Shown: piece after piece, positions 399-21,696 of the stretch
How positions within the stretch are numbered: position 1 is the first letter of the stretch
Layout of the letters: every line of letters starts with the position of its first letter
From: a virus
Reading direction: 5' to 3' (one strand)
DNA length: 23,959 nucleotides
IMG/VR virus record: IMGVR_UViG_3300024262_000243
Span: 1 to 23,959 of that record
Position numbers and translations under genes: made by a program
The notes under the pieces: generated by a model
Seen by the model: only the letters and a program-made list of their open reading frames with translations
Database searches by the model: none
Told to the model about the DNA's origin: nothing

Positions 399-613
399 TG
401 GAACTTCAAGATTTGGCCAACACCTATGAATCCGCCGAGGATTTGGTGGCCCGTCAAACGGCTCTACGTGAAATCGTAGGGTGGATGTTGGGTAAAACAC
501 TAACACAAATTTCAGGGGATATAGATGCCCTGAGTAATTCAGTATCTACTAAAAACTCATTGTCTCAGTTGGTTTTGGCAAATAGAATATTTTTGTTTGC
601 GAATGGGGAGTAA
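398..613 (+). CDS. Small helical protein, function unknown
   Basis: A 71-residue protein starting at an ATG that shares one base with the upstream stop; a G-rich stretch (GGGGG, about 374-378 region and GGGGAUG just before the start) may serve as ribosome binding site. The sequence is a mix of amphipathic helix (residues about 1-45, MELQDLANTYESAEDL onward) and a hydrophobic C-terminal part (SQLVLANRIFLFANGE). No signal peptide or catalytic motif is visible. It sits between the truncated Cys protein and the Dps-like gene with no gap, so it belongs to the same transcription unit. I do not recognise a family. Confidence 0.6.
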   Translation: MELQDLANTYESAEDLVARQTALREIVGWMLGKTLTQISGDIDALSNSVSTKNSLSQLVLANRIFLFANGE

Positions 614-614
614 C

Positions 615-1718
615 ATGAAACAGGCATATTTGCAGGGAACCCCCCAAAACCGATCCAAATCACAGGAACTACTCCGTACCCTATTGGGGTATTTGAGGGC
701 CCTTGACTGGTACTATAGGACCGCTCATTGGCAAGTGAATGGTACCGCTCAATATGGTGACCACCTCTTGTTTCAAAGATTTTATGAGGCCATGCCTCAA
801 GAGATCGATGACCTTGCTGAAAAAATGGTAGGCTACCTGGGTACCCAAGCGGTGGATGCATTATCTTCCATTTCGCAGGTCCACACCATCTTGGAAAACC
901 TGGGGACCATCAATTGTCTTTTCAAAAAGGCGTTGGCGATGGAGCGGGGATTACAAGATGGTATACGGATTTGTAACGACACCTTGGAATCCATGGGAAT
1001 GTTGCCACTAGGTCTGGAAGACTACCTTGCGTCATTAGCTTCCTCCCATGAAACAAATATCTATCTGTTACAACAACGCCTCTATGCAGGGCTTACTAAA
1101 AAATCTTTCACCTCTTTGGAAAAGTCTTGGTCGGGTAACTCCACGTTTTCACCTATACGTCGTGGTGAATTCGATGAAGATGAAGAACCCTTTGATGTAG
1201 AGGATGACAAATCCGGCACTGGACCCGCTGAACATTACTTTCGGCATAGCCCCCTGCACATGGAAGTTAGGCAATTGGGTGAGGGTGGTCCCAAACCCCC
1301 AACACCCAAAGAGATCATTCAAGAAGACCCATTTGGGGGAGAATTCAGCACCTTGGGTCGTTATGTGGTGGATACCTCACAGCCAACCCAAAGAAGGGCG
1401 AGACTTCGCAGGGTCGAAGCCAAAAAACAGGATTCCTTATTTATCCCAGGGATCACCTATAAGTACACCAAAGACTCCTTCCAGATTATACATGTGGAAA
1501 GTGGTTTAGTTGTGGTTTCCTATGCCGGTAATGTGCGTGACCCTGAAAAATTTGTGAAGTTGGCAGATCGTATACTGCGCGATATGGATTGGACGGCACC
1601 TGATTTTGTGGTGGAGAAAGAAAAATCCCGTCAATTGACCCGCCAATTTCAAAGGCATGTGGAGTTGGTACCCGACCCGAAAACGGGTGAACTATTTTAT
1701 CAGGTAGCAGGAGATTAA
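615..1718 (+). CDS. Dps/ferritin-like domain protein with long C-terminal extension
   Basis: The start at ATG 615 is preceded by GGGGAG at 605-610; an in-frame TTG 18 bases upstream lacks a comparable site. Residues about 15-165 look like a Dps-type ferritin four-helix bundle: H38-W39, then H50, D65 and E69. Spacings are 12 residues from H38 to H50, 15 from H50 to D65 and 4 from D65 to E69, which match E. coli Dps H51, H63, D78 and E82 exactly. The position of Dps Asp67 is Gln54 here. Dps proteins oxidise and store iron and protect DNA. Unlike a usual Dps of about 150-190 residues, this protein is 367 residues: after the bundle comes an acidic, Pro-rich linker (about 185-265) and a second domain (about 270-367, with FIPGITYKYTKDSFQIIHV). 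The place in the head operon suggests a virion or DNA-associated protein; iron chemistry is inferred. Confidence 0.72.
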   Translation: MKQAYLQGTPQNRSKSQELLRTLLGYLRALDWYYRTAHWQVNGTAQYGDHLLFQRFYEAMPQEIDDLAEKMVGYLGTQAVDALSSISQVHTILENLGTINCLFKKALAMERGLQDGIRICNDTLESMGMLPLGLEDYLASLASSHETNIYLLQQRLYAGLTKKSFTSLEKSWSGNSTFSPIRRGEFDEDEEPFDVEDDKSGTGPAEHYFRHSPLHMEVRQLGEGGPKPPTPKEIIQEDPFGGEFSTLGRYVVDTSQPTQRRARLRRVEAKKQDSLFIPGITYKYTKDSFQIIHVESGLVVVSYAGNVRDPEKFVKLADRILRDMDWTAPDFVVEKEKSRQLTRQFQRHVELVPDPKTGELFYQVAGD

Positions 1719-7129: not shown

Positions 7130-7753
7130 ATGTTGTATGTGATCCCTATCCTTGATCAGGTATACCAAATGAAACTTGTTACCCAAAAACAAATGGTGGC
7201 CGCTAAGAAATGGAAACCCACGGGCGATGGTACTCGTGTGGGTTTCTTTGTGCGATTGCCAGAAAACTTAGCCTCGCAATTTCCTTCGTTGGGTGACCAC
7301 GATGATTCTCCACCCCATATCACTTTTTTCAATATTGGTGACATCCCTAAAGATCGGCAAGAAGAATTCACCACACGGGTCAAGAATCTATTCCTGACTT
7401 TTAGGGGTCCGGTACATGCTTCATTGGGTCCTATAGATTATTTTGTCCATCCTGGTAAGGAACGTACGGTAGCTCACCTTGTGGTGCAATTCAACAAAAG
7501 CATTGCACAGTGGCGTTCTCGTTTGCATGATCTGGTCCTGGATATGGGATTATCCGTAGGCGACTTTAATCCCATGGTGTACAATCCACATGTCACACTA
7601 GAATACATGGATGGTTTGAATACCCAATTTACAGGTGAATTACCCAAAGGGCATTGGTCTTTCAACTCGGTGGAGATATGGGGCCTAAGTAAACCTCACA
7701 TTATACCTTTTGGTTTGGGTGCCGCAGTGCGTGTAGCTACCCACTGGGAAATC
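7130..7753 (+). other. 2H phosphoesterase domain (residues 1-208 of giant protein)
   Basis: Two HxT motifs about 90 residues apart, PHITFF at H63 and PHVTLEY at H154, each on a predicted beta strand, define the 2H superfamily, which opens 2',3'-cyclic or other cyclic phosphodiester bonds or acts on related nucleotides. The surrounding strands (GTRVGFFVRLP; SFNSVEIWGLS) fit the duplicated fold. Both His and both Thr are present, so the domain should be active. Substrate cannot be read. Families with this fold include RNA 2',3'-cyclic phosphodiesterases and the phage anti-CBASS enzyme Acb1; which is closest is unknown. Confidence 0.75.
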
Positions 7754-10700
7754 ATGAAACGGGTTGCCAGTAAATACCAGGACAAGATCAAAACGGACAA
7801 AGGTAATGTAATTTACCAATATGGTCCAAGGCAGGTAGCAGACCGCCATAAAAAAAAAGCTGAAAAGTTAGAAAAACTAAAGTCCTCCATAGGTAAATTG
7901 ACCTCTAAGGTCAAAAGAGACCTTAAATCCACAGACTCAAAAAAAAAACTCACCGCCCTGGCAGTGGCATTAATTAATGACACATATGAAAGGGTTGGGA
8001 ATGATGATTCCGCAGATGAAGGACATTTTGGGGTTACCGGTTGGTTGGTGGATCACATCAAATTCAATGGGAACGGTGCCAGTATTTCCTATGTGGGTAA
8101 ATCGGGTGTGTCCCACACCAAAAAGATAACCGACTCAACTTTAACTTCGGCCCTCAAAGATGTGTGTAAGGACTGCGACAAAGGGGGCCAAATTTTTAAT
8201 GGGGTTGGTGCTTCCGAAGTCAATGCCTACCTTAAAGAGTTTGAAATCACTGCTAAGGATCTACGTGGGTTTCATGCTAACCGTGAAATGTGCCGTGTGT
8301 TAAAAGAAAATCGCAAGAACGGTCCCACTTTGCCAAAATCCCGAAAAGAACGCGATAAGATCCTCAAAGAGGAATTCGCGAAGTCCCTGGATGAAGTGGC
8401 GCAAGTGGTGGGTCACGAAAAGGCTACCCTAAGATCCGATTATCTGGTCCCTGGTCTAGAAGATAGCTTCATGAAAGATGGGACGGTAATAGAGTCTTAT
8501 AAGAAAAAGACAGCAGCACTTCTACCAGTCATGAATCCTTTGTTTAACTTTCGCCAGATCGTCAAAGAGATTCTTCTCCTGGAGGATCATCTTGCTCACC
8601 CGGATATGCGATGCCCCGACTGCATCAATAAACACCTACTCAAAATAGAAGGGTACGCCGAAGAGGCTATTACGTTGGGGGGTGAACCCGAACTTATAGA
8701 CTTAGCAGATGGTGTGATCAGATCGGCTCGATCTTTCTTTTCTTTGTTCGGTATTGGGGTGGAGGAGGAAGAAGAGTGGTTGGATGTACAACAGGTTTTG
8801 CGCAAAACACGCAAGATTTTGTTACCCTATGCCCTACGGATCAAAGTGGCCACCAAAACACATGCTGAAAAAGAAGAAGAACAGGTAGAGAAAACCAAAC
8901 ATAAAAAACCAAAGTTGAGACCCCCCCGTAAGGACCTCCATAAAGACCGTATCCATGTGGATGATAATGACATGGATACGGGTGACCGTGGTGACGACAA
9001 AGATCTATCTTTGAACTATAAGCGGGTGGCCTCCCTATGGTCTTTTCGTAAGGCCACCCCTATGTCTTTAGCCCATAGGTTTATGGTCGCTGCCGCGAAA
9101 GAACCCGAACATGCCCCTGGTGATGTCTGGGAGACGGATGACGGCAATTGGAGAGCTAAGAACAAGAAGGGTGAGGGTAAGGGTGGTTTCGCCACAGAAG
9201 ACGCTGCTAAGGCATGGGTGAGTGGTAAGGCCCAAGACACAAAAGAAGATAAGGGTGAGGATAAGGATAAGGCTAAGGAGACGCCTGAGGAAACAATAGA
9301 AAAGGCCACCGACGAAGATATCGATAACGCCAAAAAAGAACAACAACGTTTGGAACTGGAAGATGCCATTAACGTTCGCGTGGAAAAAGAACGTAAAAAG
9401 GCTGAAAAATCAGGTGAGGACTTTGACGAGGATGCACTAAGAGAGAAGATCCACCAAAAGGGTTTGCAGTACCTCATTTCCAATATGAGCCTCAATGATA
9501 AAGAGAATAAAGAGAATCTTACTCCCGAGAACATGGAAAAAGTTCTGGATCAACATGTCCGGGAAGCATTAGAGGAAATTTCATCCGACTCAGAGGATCA
9601 AACCCAAGATAGTCCTACTCCCAAGATGGATAACAGGGTGCAGAGGGTCTTTCCTAAGGGTGACCCCGATGACAAACCCATTCGGATGCAAAGCTCTACA
9701 CAAAGATTGATTGCTGGTGTTGTGGGTGCCGCTAAGAATGTTTTAGGTGACGTGGTGGGTTCGGGTTCGGAACTACTACCCGATAAATCCAAAGATGTTA
9801 TCACCCAATGGTTTGAACAGGCGGGTACCGTTGAGTGGAATGATTTTTCGGAGGCATATTCCAAGGTAATTGATAACCTTGTTGATAGACACCTTAAGGG
9901 TGAGGTGGTAAACCCCGATGATCTAAATAAACCCCTGGGTAATTCCATACCGGAAATGGCAGAAGCGGTAGCCAAAGCGCGTTTCTTAGAAAAGTTTGAG
10001 GACATTGAGGATGCCTTGGAGGAAGATCGCAAGAAAGCGATTTCCAAAAAACTAAAGGCACTGGGACCAAAGATCCAAGGTCTCATAGAGGGTGGGTCCA
10101 AAGATACCGGGATGTCCAAGGAAGTGCAGGATGCTTTGTTGGATGCCTCTTTGGAGTTTGATGACACCCAACTCGAAAGACTTAGTGCTTCTATGGAAGG
10201 ACAACTCCGTCGTCTAAAAACCTACCGACCGGAAGCAGGGGAACCCTGGGATAAAACCACTATCAATTTGGCCCGTAAGTCTATTTCAGAGGGGATCTCC
10301 GGGGACACCCCGGATCAGATAGGTGAGTCTCTTGCCAATCTGTTATTTTCTGAAAAAGTGGTAATGAATCCTGAATTCGTGGGTAACCCCGCGATTCGTC
10401 AAAATTCCGAGTATGGGGAAGGCGAACCCACCTCGAAAAAGATAACCAGTAGAGCCAAAGCTAGTTTCAGACAGTATCAAACGATGTCCGAATTGGATAG
10501 GGTGGGTGCCTCTGAAAGGATTAAATCCCTACTTAAAAAAGAGAAAGACCCTGACTCCCCAAGGTCGTTGGAATTAGGTGCTGTGTTGGCGGGGATACAC
10601 TTGTCCCAAACACTTAATGGTGAAAAGTTAACGGGTACGGAACACCAACCTACAAGTTACTTCACAGAATTAGCCAAGGCTCTCAACAAAAAGGGTGATG

Positions 10701-12427
10701 CTGAACTTCTACTGGAGACCATGGAAGATTTTACCAGTGATAAGTCTAGGGAGATCATTGAGAATGCTATAGAGGGGATGAGTGACCAAGCACTTGCCAA
10801 CTTTGCAGGTGGTAAGGATGGCCCCTACGGTGCCTTGGCAGAGGCACTTTCGGATGGTAGCACCCTTCACTGGGATCAAAAAAGACAGGTACATAGTATT
10901 TTGTCGAGTTTGCTCACACATCGTATGACCTACGGTTATTCAGTTATTCACGATATGTACAGTGCTGTATCGGAAAAGGCAGATAATGGGGAAACACCCA
11001 AAGTTGATATGGAAGACTTTGGTAGTGTTTTTGACGAAAAGATGAATCAATGGAATCAAAAAAATCGATTTGATAATGACCGGTATTTTGATGATGATAG
11101 TATTTTGAATGTGGATGTTGACAGTCCCGATTTTGATGTGGATAAGTGGAAAAAAGAGATCCAGCAAGAAATGATGGGACAACAGAATCAATCACTTTTG
11201 GATTGGGCTGACAGTATATATGGTGGCAGACCCCCAAAAGGGGAATCCCCTGCCTATGAGTACATGGCACAAGCACAGCGGGATCAGAAATTTGACAACC
11301 TAAGTCAAAAGACGGACCCCCCTTTGCGGAAAACCGCAATGAACAATTTTCAATCTTCCTTCAATAAAAGCCACCATATATGTAATGGGGAAGTCTACCC
11401 CGTAGATAATTGTGGCAATAGCAGGTCACGGAGGTTTCTGATGGCACGTATTAGTAAAAAAGGTGCAAAAAGCGTAGTTGCCCAACTCGAACGGGTAGCC
11501 GAACTTTTTCAAACGGAACATGAAACATTGGGGATCAACGAGAAAGCAGCTTTAGATTTTGCTTACCGATGTGATCTTCTTTCCGATGTAATCGAAAAAA
11601 ACGCGGGTTTTGAAAAAGAATCCCTATCCGAGTTTGACCCGGTTAAAGAACAGGGTTTTAACCCAGAAGAAATCGGTAAAGAGGATTCCGGTCCTCTTCA
11701 AAAAGAACCCGATGAAGCGTACATGAATAGCCAATTTTCCCAACAGGAAAATCGTGAACTTCGTGAACGTCAAGAGTCGGGTGAAATTGAAAAAACCAAA
11801 GAAGGCAACCCAATTTTGGATGAACAAAATCCTCAATCAGGTAAGCAAGCTTTGGATCAATCCCTGGATACCTTGACCCGTATGGCTCAAGAGGAAGGAA
11901 GTTCTGTTACTCAGTTGAGTAACATGTCGGACACAATGCGTTTGTGTTTGGCTAAACTTCAAAATATCCCCTCTGGACCTGCAAGTGATCTTGCCAAGAA
12001 ATTATCTTCCAGTGTCCAAACACACCTCACAGCATTTACCAAAGTGCGTGATGGATTGATTGATACGGAAGCCTTGGGTGTCCCCTTGGATGTTATGAAA
12101 GAAGCGGCATTGGGTCGTCTTCTTCGTGCGTCTGGTGAAGTAATGCCACACCTCAAAGAGTTGTTGTCGGAACTTCGCGTGGGTGCCACTTCTGATAGTC
12201 CTACTGCTCAACTTAACTTGCAAGACCTCCTCGATGTCAAATCGGGACGTATTGCCAAACTCATGTCCTTGAGTGCTAAGATCGTGTCCGATGCGGCTTC
12301 TGATTTTGGCAAAAAAGAAGTTGAGGTGGTTGAAAAAAAGGCATCCGAAGAAAATGCACCCGAAGAAAAGGTGGCTTCTGTGGTCCCCCCCGCTGTTTTT
12401 GGTCATGGGTTTGATTTGTACGAATAA
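7130..12427 (+). CDS. Giant multidomain head-module protein: 2H phosphoesterase + topoisomerase IB + long helical tail
   Basis: A 1,765-codon uninterrupted frame. Residues about 30-208 form a 2H phosphoesterase (LigT/CPDase-like) with PHITFF (H63, T65) and PHVTLEY (H154, T156). Residues about 209-460 form a type IB topoisomerase catalytic domain: R288 in ERVGN, K324 in VGKSG, R379 in AKDLRGFHAN, H429 in VVGHE and nucleophile Y438 in RSDYLVPG. H to Y is nine residues, as in vaccinia enzyme (H265, Y274). Residues about 475-515 hold LLLEDHLAHPDMRCPDCINK (C495, C498), a probable metal or helical module. A charged linker, a small WETDDGNWRAKN motif (about 667-678) and about 1,000 mostly helical, acidic residues follow. 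A start at 7169 with AGG eight bases upstream is an alternative to ATG 7130, which has no clear ribosome binding site. The product may be processed or may be a fusion of formerly separate genes. Confidence 0.85.
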   Translation: MLYVIPILDQVYQMKLVTQKQMVAAKKWKPTGDGTRVGFFVRLPENLASQFPSLGDHDDSPPHITFFNIGDIPKDRQEEFTTRVKNLFLTFRGPVHASLGPIDYFVHPGKERTVAHLVVQFNKSIAQWRSRLHDLVLDMGLSVGDFNPMVYNPHVTLEYMDGLNTQFTGELPKGHWSFNSVEIWGLSKPHIIPFGLGAAVRVATHWEIMKRVASKYQDKIKTDKGNVIYQYGPRQVADRHKKKAEKLEKLKSSIGKLTSKVKRDLKSTDSKKKLTALAVALINDTYERVGNDDSADEGHFGVTGWLVDHIKFNGNGASISYVGKSGVSHTKKITDSTLTSALKDVCKDCDKGGQIFNGVGASEVNAYLKEFEITAKDLRGFHANREMCRVLKENRKNGPTLPKSRKERDKILKEEFAKSLDEVAQVVGHEKATLRSDYLVPGLEDSFMKDGTVIESYKKKTAALLPVMNPLFNFRQIVKEILLLEDHLAHPDMRCPDCINKHLLKIEGYAEEAITLGGEPELIDLADGVIRSARSFFSLFGIGVEEEEEWLDVQQVLRKTRKILLPYALRIKVATKTHAEKEEEQVEKTKHKKPKLRPPRKDLHKDRIHVDDNDMDTGDRGDDKDLSLNYKRVASLWSFRKATPMSLAHRFMVAAAKEPEHAPGDVWETDDGNWRAKNKKGEGKGGFATEDAAKAWVSGKAQDTKEDKGEDKDKAKETPEETIEKATDEDIDNAKKEQQRLELEDAINVRVEKERKKAEKSGEDFDEDALREKIHQKGLQYLISNMSLNDKENKENLTPENMEKVLDQHVREALEEISSDSEDQTQDSPTPKMDNRVQRVFPKGDPDDKPIRMQSSTQRLIAGVVGAAKNVLGDVVGSGSELLPDKSKDVITQWFEQAGTVEWNDFSEAYSKVIDNLVDRHLKGEVVNPDDLNKPLGNSIPEMAEAVAKARFLEKFEDIEDALEEDRKKAISKKLKALGPKIQGLIEGGSKDTGMSKEVQDALLDASLEFDDTQLERLSASMEGQLRRLKTYRPEAGEPWDKTTINLARKSISEGISGDTPDQIGESLANLLFSEKVVMNPEFVGNPAIRQNSEYGEGEPTSKKITSRAKASFRQYQTMSELDRVGASERIKSLLKKEKDPDSPRSLELGAVLAGIHLSQTLNGEKLTGTEHQPTSYFTELAKALNKKGDAELLLETMEDFTSDKSREIIENAIEGMSDQALANFAGGKDGPYGALAEALSDGSTLHWDQKRQVHSILSSLLTHRMTYGYSVIHDMYSAVSEKADNGETPKVDMEDFGSVFDEKMNQWNQKNRFDNDRYFDDDSILNVDVDSPDFDVDKWKKEIQQEMMGQQNQSLLDWADSIYGGRPPKGESPAYEYMAQAQRDQKFDNLSQKTDPPLRKTAMNNFQSSFNKSHHICNGEVYPVDNCGNSRSRRFLMARISKKGAKSVVAQLERVAELFQTEHETLGINEKAALDFAYRCDLLSDVIEKNAGFEKESLSEFDPVKEQGFNPEEIGKEDSGPLQKEPDEAYMNSQFSQQENRELRERQESGEIEKTKEGNPILDEQNPQSGKQALDQSLDTLTRMAQEEGSSVTQLSNMSDTMRLCLAKLQNIPSGPASDLAKKLSSSVQTHLTAFTKVRDGLIDTEALGVPLDVMKEAALGRLLRASGEVMPHLKELLSELRVGATSDSPTAQLNLQDLLDVKSGRIAKLMSLSAKIVSDAASDFGKKEVEVVEKKASEENAPEEKVASVVPPAVFGHGFDLYE
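7754..8509 (+). other. Type IB topoisomerase domain (about residues 209-460 of giant protein)
   Basis: The segment opens with MKRVASKYQ, which looks like an ancestral start codon context, then YQYGPRQVADRHKKKAEKL as in the N-terminal helix region of bacterial and poxvirus topoisomerase IB. The five catalytic residues R288, K324, R379, H429 and Y438 are all present with spacings of 36, 55, 50 and 9 residues, close to those of the vaccinia enzyme. These enzymes nick one strand through a 3'-phosphotyrosine and relax supercoils without ATP. The fold is shared with tyrosine recombinases, but ERVGN, GKSG and SDYLVPG point to topoisomerase. The N-terminal DNA-clamp domain of classical enzymes seems to be absent or replaced by the 2H domain. 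Confidence 0.85.
11430..11443 (+). promoter_or_regulatory. Internal ribosome binding site and in-frame ATG
   Basis: GGAGG (11430-11434) followed by six bases and ATG at 11441, in frame with the giant ORF at residue 1438. Translation from here would give a separate 329-residue protein starting MARISKKGAKSVVAQ. This is a better ribosome binding site than that of the giant ORF itself. The segment just upstream (ICNGEVYPVDNC) may be the end of an earlier unit. Confidence 0.5.
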
Positions 12428-18299: not shown

Positions 18300-18572
18300 A
18301 TGCCCCAAAGATATAACCACCTTGCGAAAACTGATTACCCCGTATCCGGTTGGGAACCTGACCTACAAGAGGTTGTGGTGGCCGAATGGAAGCCTATTCA
18401 AAACCAAAGTGACGTTAATTTGGTCATTTGCCATTATGAAGATGATGGGTGGGAGTTGGTGACGGTGACGTGTGTTGCTACGGGATATACTGATATGGTG
18501 GGTGTCCCCACCATGAAGTGGTGTGTTTACTTCAAACGCCCCGTCGAATCTGAACTTGAAGAAAAGGATTGA
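18300..18572 (+). CDS. DUF4177-like small protein
   Basis: A 90-residue protein with GGAG six bases before the ATG. The central part, VAEWKPIQNQS, then DVNLVICHYEDDGWELVTVT and a final strand KWCVYFKRP, fits the DUF4177-type pattern in which a helix ends in GWELV and is followed by a strand and a terminal F-K/R motif. Function of that family is unknown. Charged C-terminal tail (ESELEEKD). It ends four bases before the CoaB-like gene, so the two are probably one operon preceded by the structured leader. Confidence 0.6.
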   Translation: MPQRYNHLAKTDYPVSGWEPDLQEVVVAEWKPIQNQSDVNLVICHYEDDGWELVTVTCVATGYTDMVGVPTMKWCVYFKRPVESELEEKD

Positions 18573-18576
18573 TTTC

Positions 18577-19905
18577 ATGAAAGATCGATTTTATGTGATA
18601 TCAGGGGGTACTATGGTCCATGTGGCCCCCCATTTTAGTCTGTGTTCACCCGCTTACGGTACTGTGGGGAACTCCCTGGTACGGGGGTTGTCACTCTATG
18701 CTGGGGGTCAGGATAGCGTTCATCTGATTCCCACCCGTATGGTGAACACCCCCTTCCAGGTAGATGGCCATGTAGACCACCTCTTGGATATCTTGGATTT
18801 GAAATTCATAGAAACCAACGAAGATGTGTCCCGGTTGGTGGACCTCTTGGTATCTCGCGAAGAGACTCGTTGCATCGTGATGGCTTGCGCCTTGTGTGAT
18901 TTTGAACCCCGTAAGATATCTTGGATTGAGGAAGGTCCCTACAATTTTAAAAGCCTTCGGTCTTTTGGGAAAGATCAACCCCGTCTCTCTTCCAAATACC
19001 GCCCCCAAATGGATCTGATACCTACCGATAAGTTGATCGGGAAGATCCGTAAAAACCGAAAAGACATATTTTTGGTGGGGTTCAAAACCACAGCGGGTGA
19101 ATCTCCCAAATCCCTTTACGACAAGGGTCTCAAACTCTTGAAAGACAATTCCTGCAATTTGGTCTTGGGTAACGATATTCAAACCCACCTCAATATGATC
19201 ATCACACCGGAAGAGTTTCCATATACCTTTGTGGGCGGCAAGGGTAGGGATGAAGCTATTGACCAATTGTGTGAAATGGTAATCCAGCGGACTAAACTCT
19301 CTTTTTCCAAAACAGAGGTGACAGGGACACCCGATCAAAAAATCCTTCCTGCTACCGCAGAGGGTATCCCGGAAAACTTTGTTCCAGTGCTACGATTCCT
19401 TATTGAAAATAATGCCTTCAAGTTGGTCAATGGTAGGACCACGGGTCATTTTGGTTGTGTATACCCAGAGGGTAGTTTATCTTCTGTTAGGTATGCCAAT
19501 CACAACAAGGTTTTCGAAGAGGGTATGGTTCGGGTAACTGGTACCAAAGATGGAGTGATCCAGGCTATTGGTTCTAAGCCTTCGGCGGGGGAACATACCC
19601 AACAGGAGATCTATCGTCAATTGGGGGATAGGGTACATTCGGTGGTACACTTCCATTGCCCCTTGAGTAAAGGTATCATCCTACCCATGGCCTCACAGAA
19701 GCCATTTGAGTGCGGTTCCCATCAGTGTGCTACCAACACGGTCAACGCTATGGAGGAATTGTCTCCAGGGGTCTATGTGTGCCACCTGGAGGGGCATGGT
19801 CCAAACATTGCCTTTCACAAAGATGTACCCGCATATACTCTTATTTTCATGATTCGGAAGTTTTGGGATTTGTCAAAGGGTCTTTCCGATCACCTGGAGG
19901 ATTAG
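18577..19905 (+). CDS. CoaB-like (phosphopantothenoylcysteine synthetase) / class II aldolase-like fusion enzyme
   Basis: ATG 18577 with AAAAGGA at 18562-18568 gives 442 residues; upstream in-frame ATG overlaps the previous gene. Residues about 1-235 resemble the CoaB half of DFP/CoaBC, which joins phosphopantothenate and cysteine in coenzyme A synthesis: SGGT (9-12) for nucleotide binding, LVGFKTTAGES (166-) in the place of CoaB VGFxAET, and GNDI (198-201) in the place of AND(V). Residues about 265-442 resemble the class II aldolase/adducin fold with HFH (H358, H360) and HLEGH (H403, H407) as likely metal ligands. CoaB alone is usually fused to CoaC, not to an aldolase. The arrangement suggests an auxiliary metabolic enzyme or a repurposed nucleotide-dependent enzyme; substrates are unknown. 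Confidence 0.72.
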   Translation: MKDRFYVISGGTMVHVAPHFSLCSPAYGTVGNSLVRGLSLYAGGQDSVHLIPTRMVNTPFQVDGHVDHLLDILDLKFIETNEDVSRLVDLLVSREETRCIVMACALCDFEPRKISWIEEGPYNFKSLRSFGKDQPRLSSKYRPQMDLIPTDKLIGKIRKNRKDIFLVGFKTTAGESPKSLYDKGLKLLKDNSCNLVLGNDIQTHLNMIITPEEFPYTFVGGKGRDEAIDQLCEMVIQRTKLSFSKTEVTGTPDQKILPATAEGIPENFVPVLRFLIENNAFKLVNGRTTGHFGCVYPEGSLSSVRYANHNKVFEEGMVRVTGTKDGVIQAIGSKPSAGEHTQQEIYRQLGDRVHSVVHFHCPLSKGIILPMASQKPFECGSHQCATNTVNAMEELSPGVYVCHLEGHGPNIAFHKDVPAYTLIFMIRKFWDLSKGLSDHLED

Positions 19906-20323: not shown

Positions 20324-20758
20324 ATGAAAAACAATTGCAAAATTTCCCTTTACCTTGTGATCCTAACCCTTGGTTTTTCCTTTGGCATGGTGGCTTATTC
20401 CGCCCCCACTTCAAAACCAACGTCACAACCTACATCACAACAGGCATCACCACCTGTGATCAAATCCGGTAGGCACACGGGTGCTGTGCATGTAGAACCC
20501 TTTGACCCTTCCAAAAGTTGTTTCCTGGTTAATGACTTCCCGCAAGCCGATTTTACCACGGTGGTTAAAGCCAAGAGAACACCCGAGTGGGTGAAGCTTC
20601 GATCTCAAATTCGGATATTGCAGGAAGAACAGGCAAAATTGGGGAAAAAAATTGCCAGTAACAAAGAAAAATCGGTCGCCAAATCCATTGGGGATGCTTT
20701 CTCTTTCTTTGTGATGTGTGTGTTTTTGGGGTTTGTTGTGAAGAAAGTTTCTAACTGA
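20324..20758 (+). CDS. Secreted or membrane protein with Thr/Ser/Pro repeat
   Basis: A 144-residue protein with AAAGG nine bases before the ATG. Residues 1-27 are a signal peptide: basic MKNNCK, hydrophobic ISLYLVILTLGFSFGMVAY, and an Ala-containing cleavage site (YSA-PT). There is no lipobox Cys. Residues about 28-43 are repetitive (PTSKPTSQPTSQQAS), a likely extended linker. A helical, Lys/Gln-rich segment (about 92-120) precedes a C-terminal hydrophobic stretch (FSFFVMCVFLGFVVKKV), a possible second membrane anchor. This could be an envelope or lysis-related protein, for example a spanin-like bridge, but no lysis family is recognisable. Its end overlaps by eight bases the end of the convergent metallophosphoesterase gene. 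Confidence 0.6.
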   Translation: MKNNCKISLYLVILTLGFSFGMVAYSAPTSKPTSQPTSQQASPPVIKSGRHTGAVHVEPFDPSKSCFLVNDFPQADFTTVVKAKRTPEWVKLRSQIRILQEEQAKLGKKIASNKEKSVAKSIGDAFSFFVMCVFLGFVVKKVSN

Positions 20759-21518
20759 CCTTGAAAAGTTTCCCCTGGTAGAATAAAGACCCATTGATGA
20801 TGGGTATCTGATCAATCACCATCCTCTCTTCTTCCAATAAATAATGACCTATCGAAAATCCATGTTGCCAATCCGGTGTGCCATTTATGTATTCTGGGTC
20901 CATGTGGCAAAGGCACCCATTTTCATACCAAGTATAGTGTCCTTGTAGTGTGGTTCGATGGTGGGCCCCCAGCCTATGGGTGTGTCCCGAGATACCCGAA
21001 TTTTGTCTTCGCTCAAACATCTTCTTTGCTGTCATAGCGGAACCTACAGATACACGGTCACCATGTTCTACCAAAAAATTATGATGGGATAGGTATCCCC
21101 GATATCCCTGGTGTGTAATACCCAAGGAATCTAGTTCGAGCAATGCAGGTATCGTAAGTGCCTTGAGTCCCGCCATTTCCTCATGTTTTTTAATGTACGT
21201 GACCAATCGGTCTTCGTGGTTCCCATCTTTATATGCAATCTCTGCGTCGGGACAGGCGTTTTTGACGTGGTGTAGGAATTCAATGGTGGCATCGATTTCA
21301 AGCTGGAACTTACTGGCCTTGTTGGCATCTTTGGAGTAACTGCTAACCGCATACATATCGATGATATCACCAATAAGGTAAATGAATTGTGGTTGAAACC
21401 ATCTTATGAATGACAACATCAAACGGATGGCTACCTTATCCTGGAAGGGGTGGTGGGTATCCCCAATGAATACCACTTTTTCAACTTCGGTGGGGATGGA
21501 CTTTATAACTTTTATCAT
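20751..21518 (-). CDS. Calcineurin-like metallophosphoesterase
   Basis: Minus strand; the start is ATG at 21518 (reading down) because GGAG lies eight bases upstream of it on that strand (sequence GGAGAAGAACATG). A longer reading frame with 19 more codons has no site. The product is 255 residues and has all the signature blocks of the family: GDTHH (D20, H22), GDIID (D51), GNHED (N100, H101), EHGD and GHTHR. These place two metal ions that hydrolyse phosphomonoesters or diesters, including nucleic-acid ends. No membrane part. It is the only minus-strand gene in the window, convergent with the secreted-protein gene and divergent from the next, so it must have its own promoter in 21519-21696. 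Confidence 0.88.
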   Translation of the reverse strand: MIKVIKSIPTEVEKVVFIGDTHHPFQDKVAIRLMLSFIRWFQPQFIYLIGDIIDMYAVSSYSKDANKASKFQLEIDATIEFLHHVKNACPDAEIAYKDGNHEDRLVTYIKKHEEMAGLKALTIPALLELDSLGITHQGYRGYLSHHNFLVEHGDRVSVGSAMTAKKMFERRQNSGISGHTHRLGAHHRTTLQGHYTWYENGCLCHMDPEYINGTPDWQHGFSIGHYLLEEERMVIDQIPIINGSLFYQGKLFKVS

Positions 21519-21696
21519 GTTCTTCTCCAATGAAAGGACCAAAAGTCTATGGGTAAAAGTACCCCATAACTTCAAACCCCTACCCTATCTTTGGACGATA
21601 ATAAACGGAATCCGTCTAAAACTCCCTAAAATGGGGTCGTTCATACTCCTTTTATAAAAAAACTAATTAGGAACACTTTATATAGGAGTGAGGAAA
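21519..21696. promoter_or_regulatory. Divergent intergenic region
   Basis: 178 bases between the minus-strand metallophosphoesterase and the next plus-strand gene. It must hold promoters for both. On the plus side TATATAGG (21679-21686) sits just before the ribosome binding site and resembles the TATATAAG at 16012; whether it is a promoter box or only part of the leader is unclear. ACGGAATCCGT (about 21604-21614) is a small inverted repeat, too weak to call a terminator. Confidence 0.35.

Follow-up and report, generated by a model that had tools for sequence, protein, structure and literature searches.

A single gene in the window (the whole 23,959-base stretch of viral DNA analyzed here) encodes one polypeptide in which a CoaB-fold domain is joined to a class II aldolase-fold domain, and the two domains are conserved as a pair. 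Huge phages share this conserved pairing with a few bacteria, and each active site carries changes specific to the family. Each half comes from a known superfamily; the pairing itself is apparently undescribed, as the original prediction had suggested, since we found no description of it in open papers (subscription journals and preprints being outside the scope of the search), including two comparative studies of NAD and ADP-ribose metabolism in jumbo phages.

The fusion gene and its surroundings

The fusion occupies one open reading frame (ORF) and follows a short ORF on the same strand.

18300..18572, + strand: upstream ORF of 90 amino acids (aa), without a family match, separated from the fusion gene by a 4-nt gap
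18577..19905, + strand: fusion gene of 442 aa, one ORF, with ATG at 18577 and stop codon at 19903-19905

An AAGGAT ribosome site lies immediately 5' of the fusion ATG, and the 90-aa ORF and the fusion gene are probably on the same transcript. A full-length copy with 99.8% identity to the window gene is found on a second IMG/VR contig (L001), and the architecture is common to 148 ORFs of ≥380 aa, 92 of them distinct. The predicted fusion of two domains in one gene is thus borne out by the single 442-aa ORF and the 148 ORFs of shared architecture, which together with the L001 copy rule out an assembly error or frameshift as the cause of the join. Fusion homologues form 89 clusters at 90% identity, all with the same architecture. 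AlphaFold2 modeled the 442-aa protein with a pLDDT of 95.1 and a pTM of 0.92.

The window also contains phage head genes (terminase, portal, maturation protease and major head protein). Between the portal and head genes lies a 1765-aa ORF (7130-12427, + strand); its residues 239-434 match the catalytic core of eukaryotic-type topoisomerase IB (PF01028, E 2.7e-26), and two motifs in its N-terminus, HITFF and HVTLEY, recall 2H phosphoesterases. Adjoining the packaging genes, an ORF at 597-1718 (+ strand) matches, at its N-terminus, PHROGs of Dps-like or starvation-inducible DNA-binding proteins. A calcineurin-like metallophosphoesterase (PHROG 221) is encoded on the opposite strand shortly 3' of the fusion (20751-21575, - strand).

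The CoaB-like domain

18577..19308, + strand: CoaB/PPCS-like domain, residues 1-244, identified by Pfam, NCBIfam, a PDB profile and structure
18898..18900, + strand: D108, counterpart of the cation-binding Asp of CoaB (M. smegmatis D281), placed by hhalign to E. coli CoaB and present in 74/74 homologues

The window copy matched Pfam DFP above the cut-off (2.3e-5; 24.7 bits against a cut-off of 22), as did 52 of 75 homologues; its match to NCBIfam CoaB (2.5e-8) was weak and far under the equivalog cut-offs. Searched against the PDB, the family profile identified S. pneumoniae CoaB (2gk4) with E 7e-15. Residues 1-244 of the AlphaFold2 model aligned to 2gk4 with Z 21.9 (206 residues, 3.0 Å) and to E. 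coli CoaB (1u7z) with Z 19.5; solved CoaB/PPCS structures gave Z 17-22, the nearest folds were all CoaB/PPCS, and Foldseek concurs on the CoaB fold. The CoaB-like assignment made originally is upheld by the DFP match and the alignment to 2gk4, and the motifs quoted in its favor are all present, both in this half (SGGT, 9-12; VGFKTTAGES, 167-176; GNDI, 198-201) and in the aldolase half (HFH, 358-360; HLEGH, 403-407). A chance motif match is ruled out by the profiles and structure. PHROG 35624, a family of CoaB-like phage proteins with function unknown, also matched the window copy (4.9e-21) and 74/74 fusion members, which places them in the same CoaB-like family; unlike the fusion, however, its profile spans the CoaB-like part only.

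In M. smegmatis CoaB, D281 is the Asp that binds the nucleotide's cation, R207 and N211 are the active-site Arg and Asn, and the KXKK loop touches the triphosphate, with a few exceptions among bacterial CoaB (PMC7794376). Like CoaB/PPCS (PF04127; 2gk4, 1u7z), the fusion has the whole-domain fold (Z 19-22), the GGT/GPT strand, the cation-binding Asp, the GF loop and the ND motif. Unlike CoaB/PPCS, it has no CoaC half, has an aldolase-like domain attached, and lacks equivalents of E. coli R206 and N210, the Arg and Asn reported at the active site. By hhalign these two residues align with protein positions 20 (L/F/M) and 24 (A/T/M/S/V); Arg and Asn are absent there in 74/74 homologues. The KXKK place is RLxT/S in most members, with only Arg136 invariant. 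The loss of CoaB nucleotide-binding residues, envisaged originally as evidence against the assignment, is therefore partial: the metal/triphosphate Asp is kept, whereas KXKK is cut to an invariant Arg.

The aldolase-like domain

19351..19902, + strand: class II aldolase-like zinc domain, residues 259-442, identified by Aldolase_II matches in homologues and by structure
19588..19590, + strand: G338, at the position of catalytic Glu73 (FucA) or Asp76 (AraD), by hhalign; Gly in 74/74 homologues
19648..19656, + strand: H358-F-H360, two predicted metal ligands (FucA H92/H94), by hhalign; 74/74
19711..19728, + strand: C379-G-S-x-x-C384, family-specific invariant motif; C379, G380, S381 and C384 in 74/74
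19795..19797, + strand: H407, third predicted metal ligand (FucA H155), by hhalign; 74/74

Alone, the aldolase half of the window copy matched no Pfam model. Aldolase_II was matched by 67/75 homologues (best E 1.2e-10), and the family profile also matches L-ribulose-5-phosphate 4-epimerase, weakly. Residues 259-442 of the AlphaFold2 model aligned to 2opi with Z 13.8 (159 residues, 4.1 Å) and to FucA (1dzz) with Z 13.7, and FucA-type aldolases overall gave Z 12-14. The homologue matches and the alignment to 2opi agree with the class II aldolase-like domain predicted originally.

This half resembles class II aldolases and epimerases (PF00596; FucA, AraD and 6btg of Bacillus thuringiensis) in fold (Z 12-14), in the HxH...H metal triad and in the KPS loop. 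It differs from them in having Gly where the alignment puts Glu73/Asp76, the catalytic acid/base residues of FucA and AraD, a His at the FucA Asn29 position (H291 in 74/74 homologues), new invariant CGSxxC and GHF motifs, and a CoaB-like domain attached. S303, R305, N310, Q342 and N410 are likewise present in 74/74 homologues; over the whole protein, 45 positions are invariant across these 74 divergent homologues, the full metal triad included.

The protein could be a plain sugar-phosphate aldolase or epimerase, with the CoaB-like half as a mere binding or dimerization module, as the intact His triad and the aldolase fold would allow; we consider this improbable given Gly for the catalytic Glu/Asp and His for FucA N29 in 74/74, and given that other phages have the CoaB half by itself whereas the aldolase half is never alone among the best 80 viral loci. 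Both halves retain the fold and the metal or nucleotide side, with residues expected for the textbook reactions altered; by the residues tested, neither CoaB nor canonical class II aldolase is a proper label for the fusion. The earlier suggestion of a phosphopantothenate-like substrate is weakened as far as canonical CoaB chemistry is concerned, because counterparts of R206/N210 are absent and the aldolase Glu/Asp is Gly in 74/74.

Distribution in viruses and bacteria

In a viral scan, 123 contig stretches encoded a relative, the best 80 of which were kept; scans with the CoaB half and the aldolase half found 110 and 144, respectively. Contigs reach 578 kb. The pairing had been expected to be rare; large phage contigs instead have it commonly, at least 123 contigs from viruses encoding it, some of them >500 kb. 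In an annotated phage collection, the whole fusion is confined to the 595-kb record LR756511, and the CoaB-like part is present in Caulobacter Bertelyvirus and in Pseudomonas Otagovirus, Milchi and Astolliot; no aldolase half was seen at the Caulobacter and Pseudomonas phage loci inspected. None of the best 80 viral loci has a stand-alone aldolase half, the short ones being cut by contig ends, and the BFVD viral models gave no fold match at E ≤ 0.001. On one viral contig (L129:2307-3191), the gene stops at the linker, without the aldolase half, and is followed directly by a gene for the ~110-aa partner described below. Variovorax sp. plasmids (NZ_LR594667.1, 157809-158342, and three others) encode stand-alone CoaB-like relatives of the phage family that are annotated as phosphopantothenoylcysteine decarboxylase, a name that is probably misleading.

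Bacterial fusions were found in a few Patescibacteria, in Alphaproteobacteria, in a Saprospiraceae and in an Armatimonadota assembly; in the case of some contigs, viral sequence may have been put into bacterial bins. On the fusion tree, for which branch support is SH-aLRT only, cellular copies are scattered among phage copies, with 7 changes, at least 5 of them forced by supported branches; the tree rules out a recent acquisition by one phage.

Bacterial neighborhoods raise the possibility of a role in CoA/pantothenate metabolism, in which the CoaB half would use a phosphopantothenate-like acid and the aldolase half would make or break a sugar- or pantoate-like part. A CoaB-family gene lies beside the fusion in two patescibacterial genomes and a CoaC gene in one: on a saccharibacterial contig (L179:5659-8057) separate CoaB and CoaC genes come after the fusion, and in an Uhrbacterium a CoaB-family gene precedes it. 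The nearest solved folds of the N-terminal half, all CoaB/PPCS, also fit. However, in the saccharibacterial copy the CoaB half is degenerate, few genomes of that organism's order have the fusion (5/392), no CoaB/CoaC-like partner was noticed beside phage copies, and the E. coli R206/N210 positions are replaced in 74/74; on balance we regard a CoA role as unlikely.

Several alphaproteobacterial fusions carry an N-terminal XRE-type helix-turn-helix (HTH) domain (L161, L162, L165, L167, L168, L169 and L171), and TrmB-type regulator genes adjoin the fusion in Patescibacteria. Both features, and the loss of the catalytic Glu/Asp, would suit a ligand-sensing or scaffold protein that has lost catalysis in both halves. 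We doubt this reading, to about the same degree as that of a plain aldolase, because the HTH is absent from phage copies and the 45 invariant positions, with the full metal triad, suit catalysis better.

Gene neighborhood

Gene neighbors differ between the lineages that carry the fusion. By simple ORF calls, the neighbor is on the same strand in 77 of 87 cases upstream and 71 of 88 downstream, and many are tightly spaced. Two partners recur independently: a ~110-aa protein and an ADP-ribosylglycohydrolase.

The ~110-aa partner (PHROG 36447, function unknown) has an HNxxxHP...HD pattern, with invariant E-G, W, H-N, H-P and H residues in the alignment. It lies 3' of the fusion on the same strand at 37 loci of phages and bacteria alike, in almost every case no more than 1.5 kb away, and its adjacency changes at least 14 times on the tree. 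Its AlphaFold2 model (pLDDT 90) reached Z 5 with no PDB chain. Examples just downstream of the fusion, among others, are as follows.

L141:8740-9072: ~110-aa partner
L160:4253-4579: ~110-aa partner
L165:7772-8122: ~110-aa partner

An ADP-ribosylglycohydrolase gene lies within 5 kb of the fusion in 8 of the 15 genomes having one, against 0.67 expected, a result reached in 0 of 5000 random placements (one near-duplicate was dropped and genomes were treated as independent). The adjacency occurs in scattered lineages (≥7 changes on the tree), and such a gene is nearby in 15 of 110 rows. Carrier genomes encode an ADP-ribosylglycohydrolase in 16 of 37 cases and NAPRTase/NadV, not adjacent to the fusion, in 27 of 37; the corresponding values for jumbo phages are ~5% and 33% (PMC9503650), in other genomes that are mostly sequenced isolates. 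Macro and NAPRTase were rejected as linked neighbors, being present in carriers but not co-localized with the fusion, and CYTH was rejected as an independent neighbor because its adjacency represents one clade only (1 change on the tree). The window's own neighbors include no ADP-ribosylglycohydrolase, NAPRTase, Macro, CYTH, deoxyribosyltransferase-like or DUF4326 gene.

In some phages and Alphaproteobacteria, an M23-peptidase-family gene adjoins the fusion or a CoaB-like gene that stands alone.

L165:7233-7772: M23-family neighbor
L168:7227-7769: M23-family neighbor
L006:6591-7268: M23-family neighbor
L095:4779-5282: M23-family neighbor
L002:6875-7480: M23-family neighbor

Nucleoside deoxyribosyltransferase-like and DUF4326 neighbors occur at single loci, the former overlapping the fusion in LR756511. 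DNA modification is frequent in huge phages, and this, together with the overlapping gene, could point to the fusion making the precursor of a nucleotide or base that is hypermodified in phage DNA. This is the least probable of the readings considered: no DNA-modification gene recurs among the neighbors, and the fusion occurs in bacterial genomes too.

Proposed function

We tentatively favor, at well short of even confidence, a bifunctional, two-step enzyme acting on a nucleotide-linked sugar or an ADP-ribose-type substrate and serving an NAD/ADP-ribose programme of huge phages. Metal and nucleotide binding are predicted because of the conserved residues: the CoaB-like domain would bind a nucleotide and metal through D108, R136, GGT and the FKTT loop, and the aldolase-like domain would bind a divalent metal (zinc) through H358, H360 and H407. 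The CoaB-like domain may then activate or hold a substrate other than phosphopantothenate, and the aldolase-like domain may catalyze a step of the retro-aldol, epimerase or dehydratase type using a new acid/base set, for which H291, C379, C384 and N410 are candidates. The substrate class, a nucleotide-linked sugar or ADP-ribose-type metabolite, is the weakest step, suggested because of neighboring genes only; these neighbors are lineage-dependent, most loci have no nearby ADP-ribosylglycohydrolase, and the neighbors in two Patescibacteria point instead to CoA. Its role would be in the NAD/ADP-ribose and nucleotide programme by which huge phages counter host depletion.

The fusion has been annotated only as unknown (PHROG 35624) despite its conservation in very divergent huge phages; because such phages keep it, it does something that is repeatedly retained. 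Both halves have relatives among enzymes of solved structure, which would make substrate tests direct. The recurring ADP-ribosylglycohydrolase neighbor may tie the fusion to the phage-host contest over NAD and ADP-ribose. With its HNxxxHP partner, this new bifunctional family could, with similarly guarded confidence, carry out during infection an undescribed step by which a metabolite of the ADP-ribose/NAD or CoA type is made, remodeled or removed.
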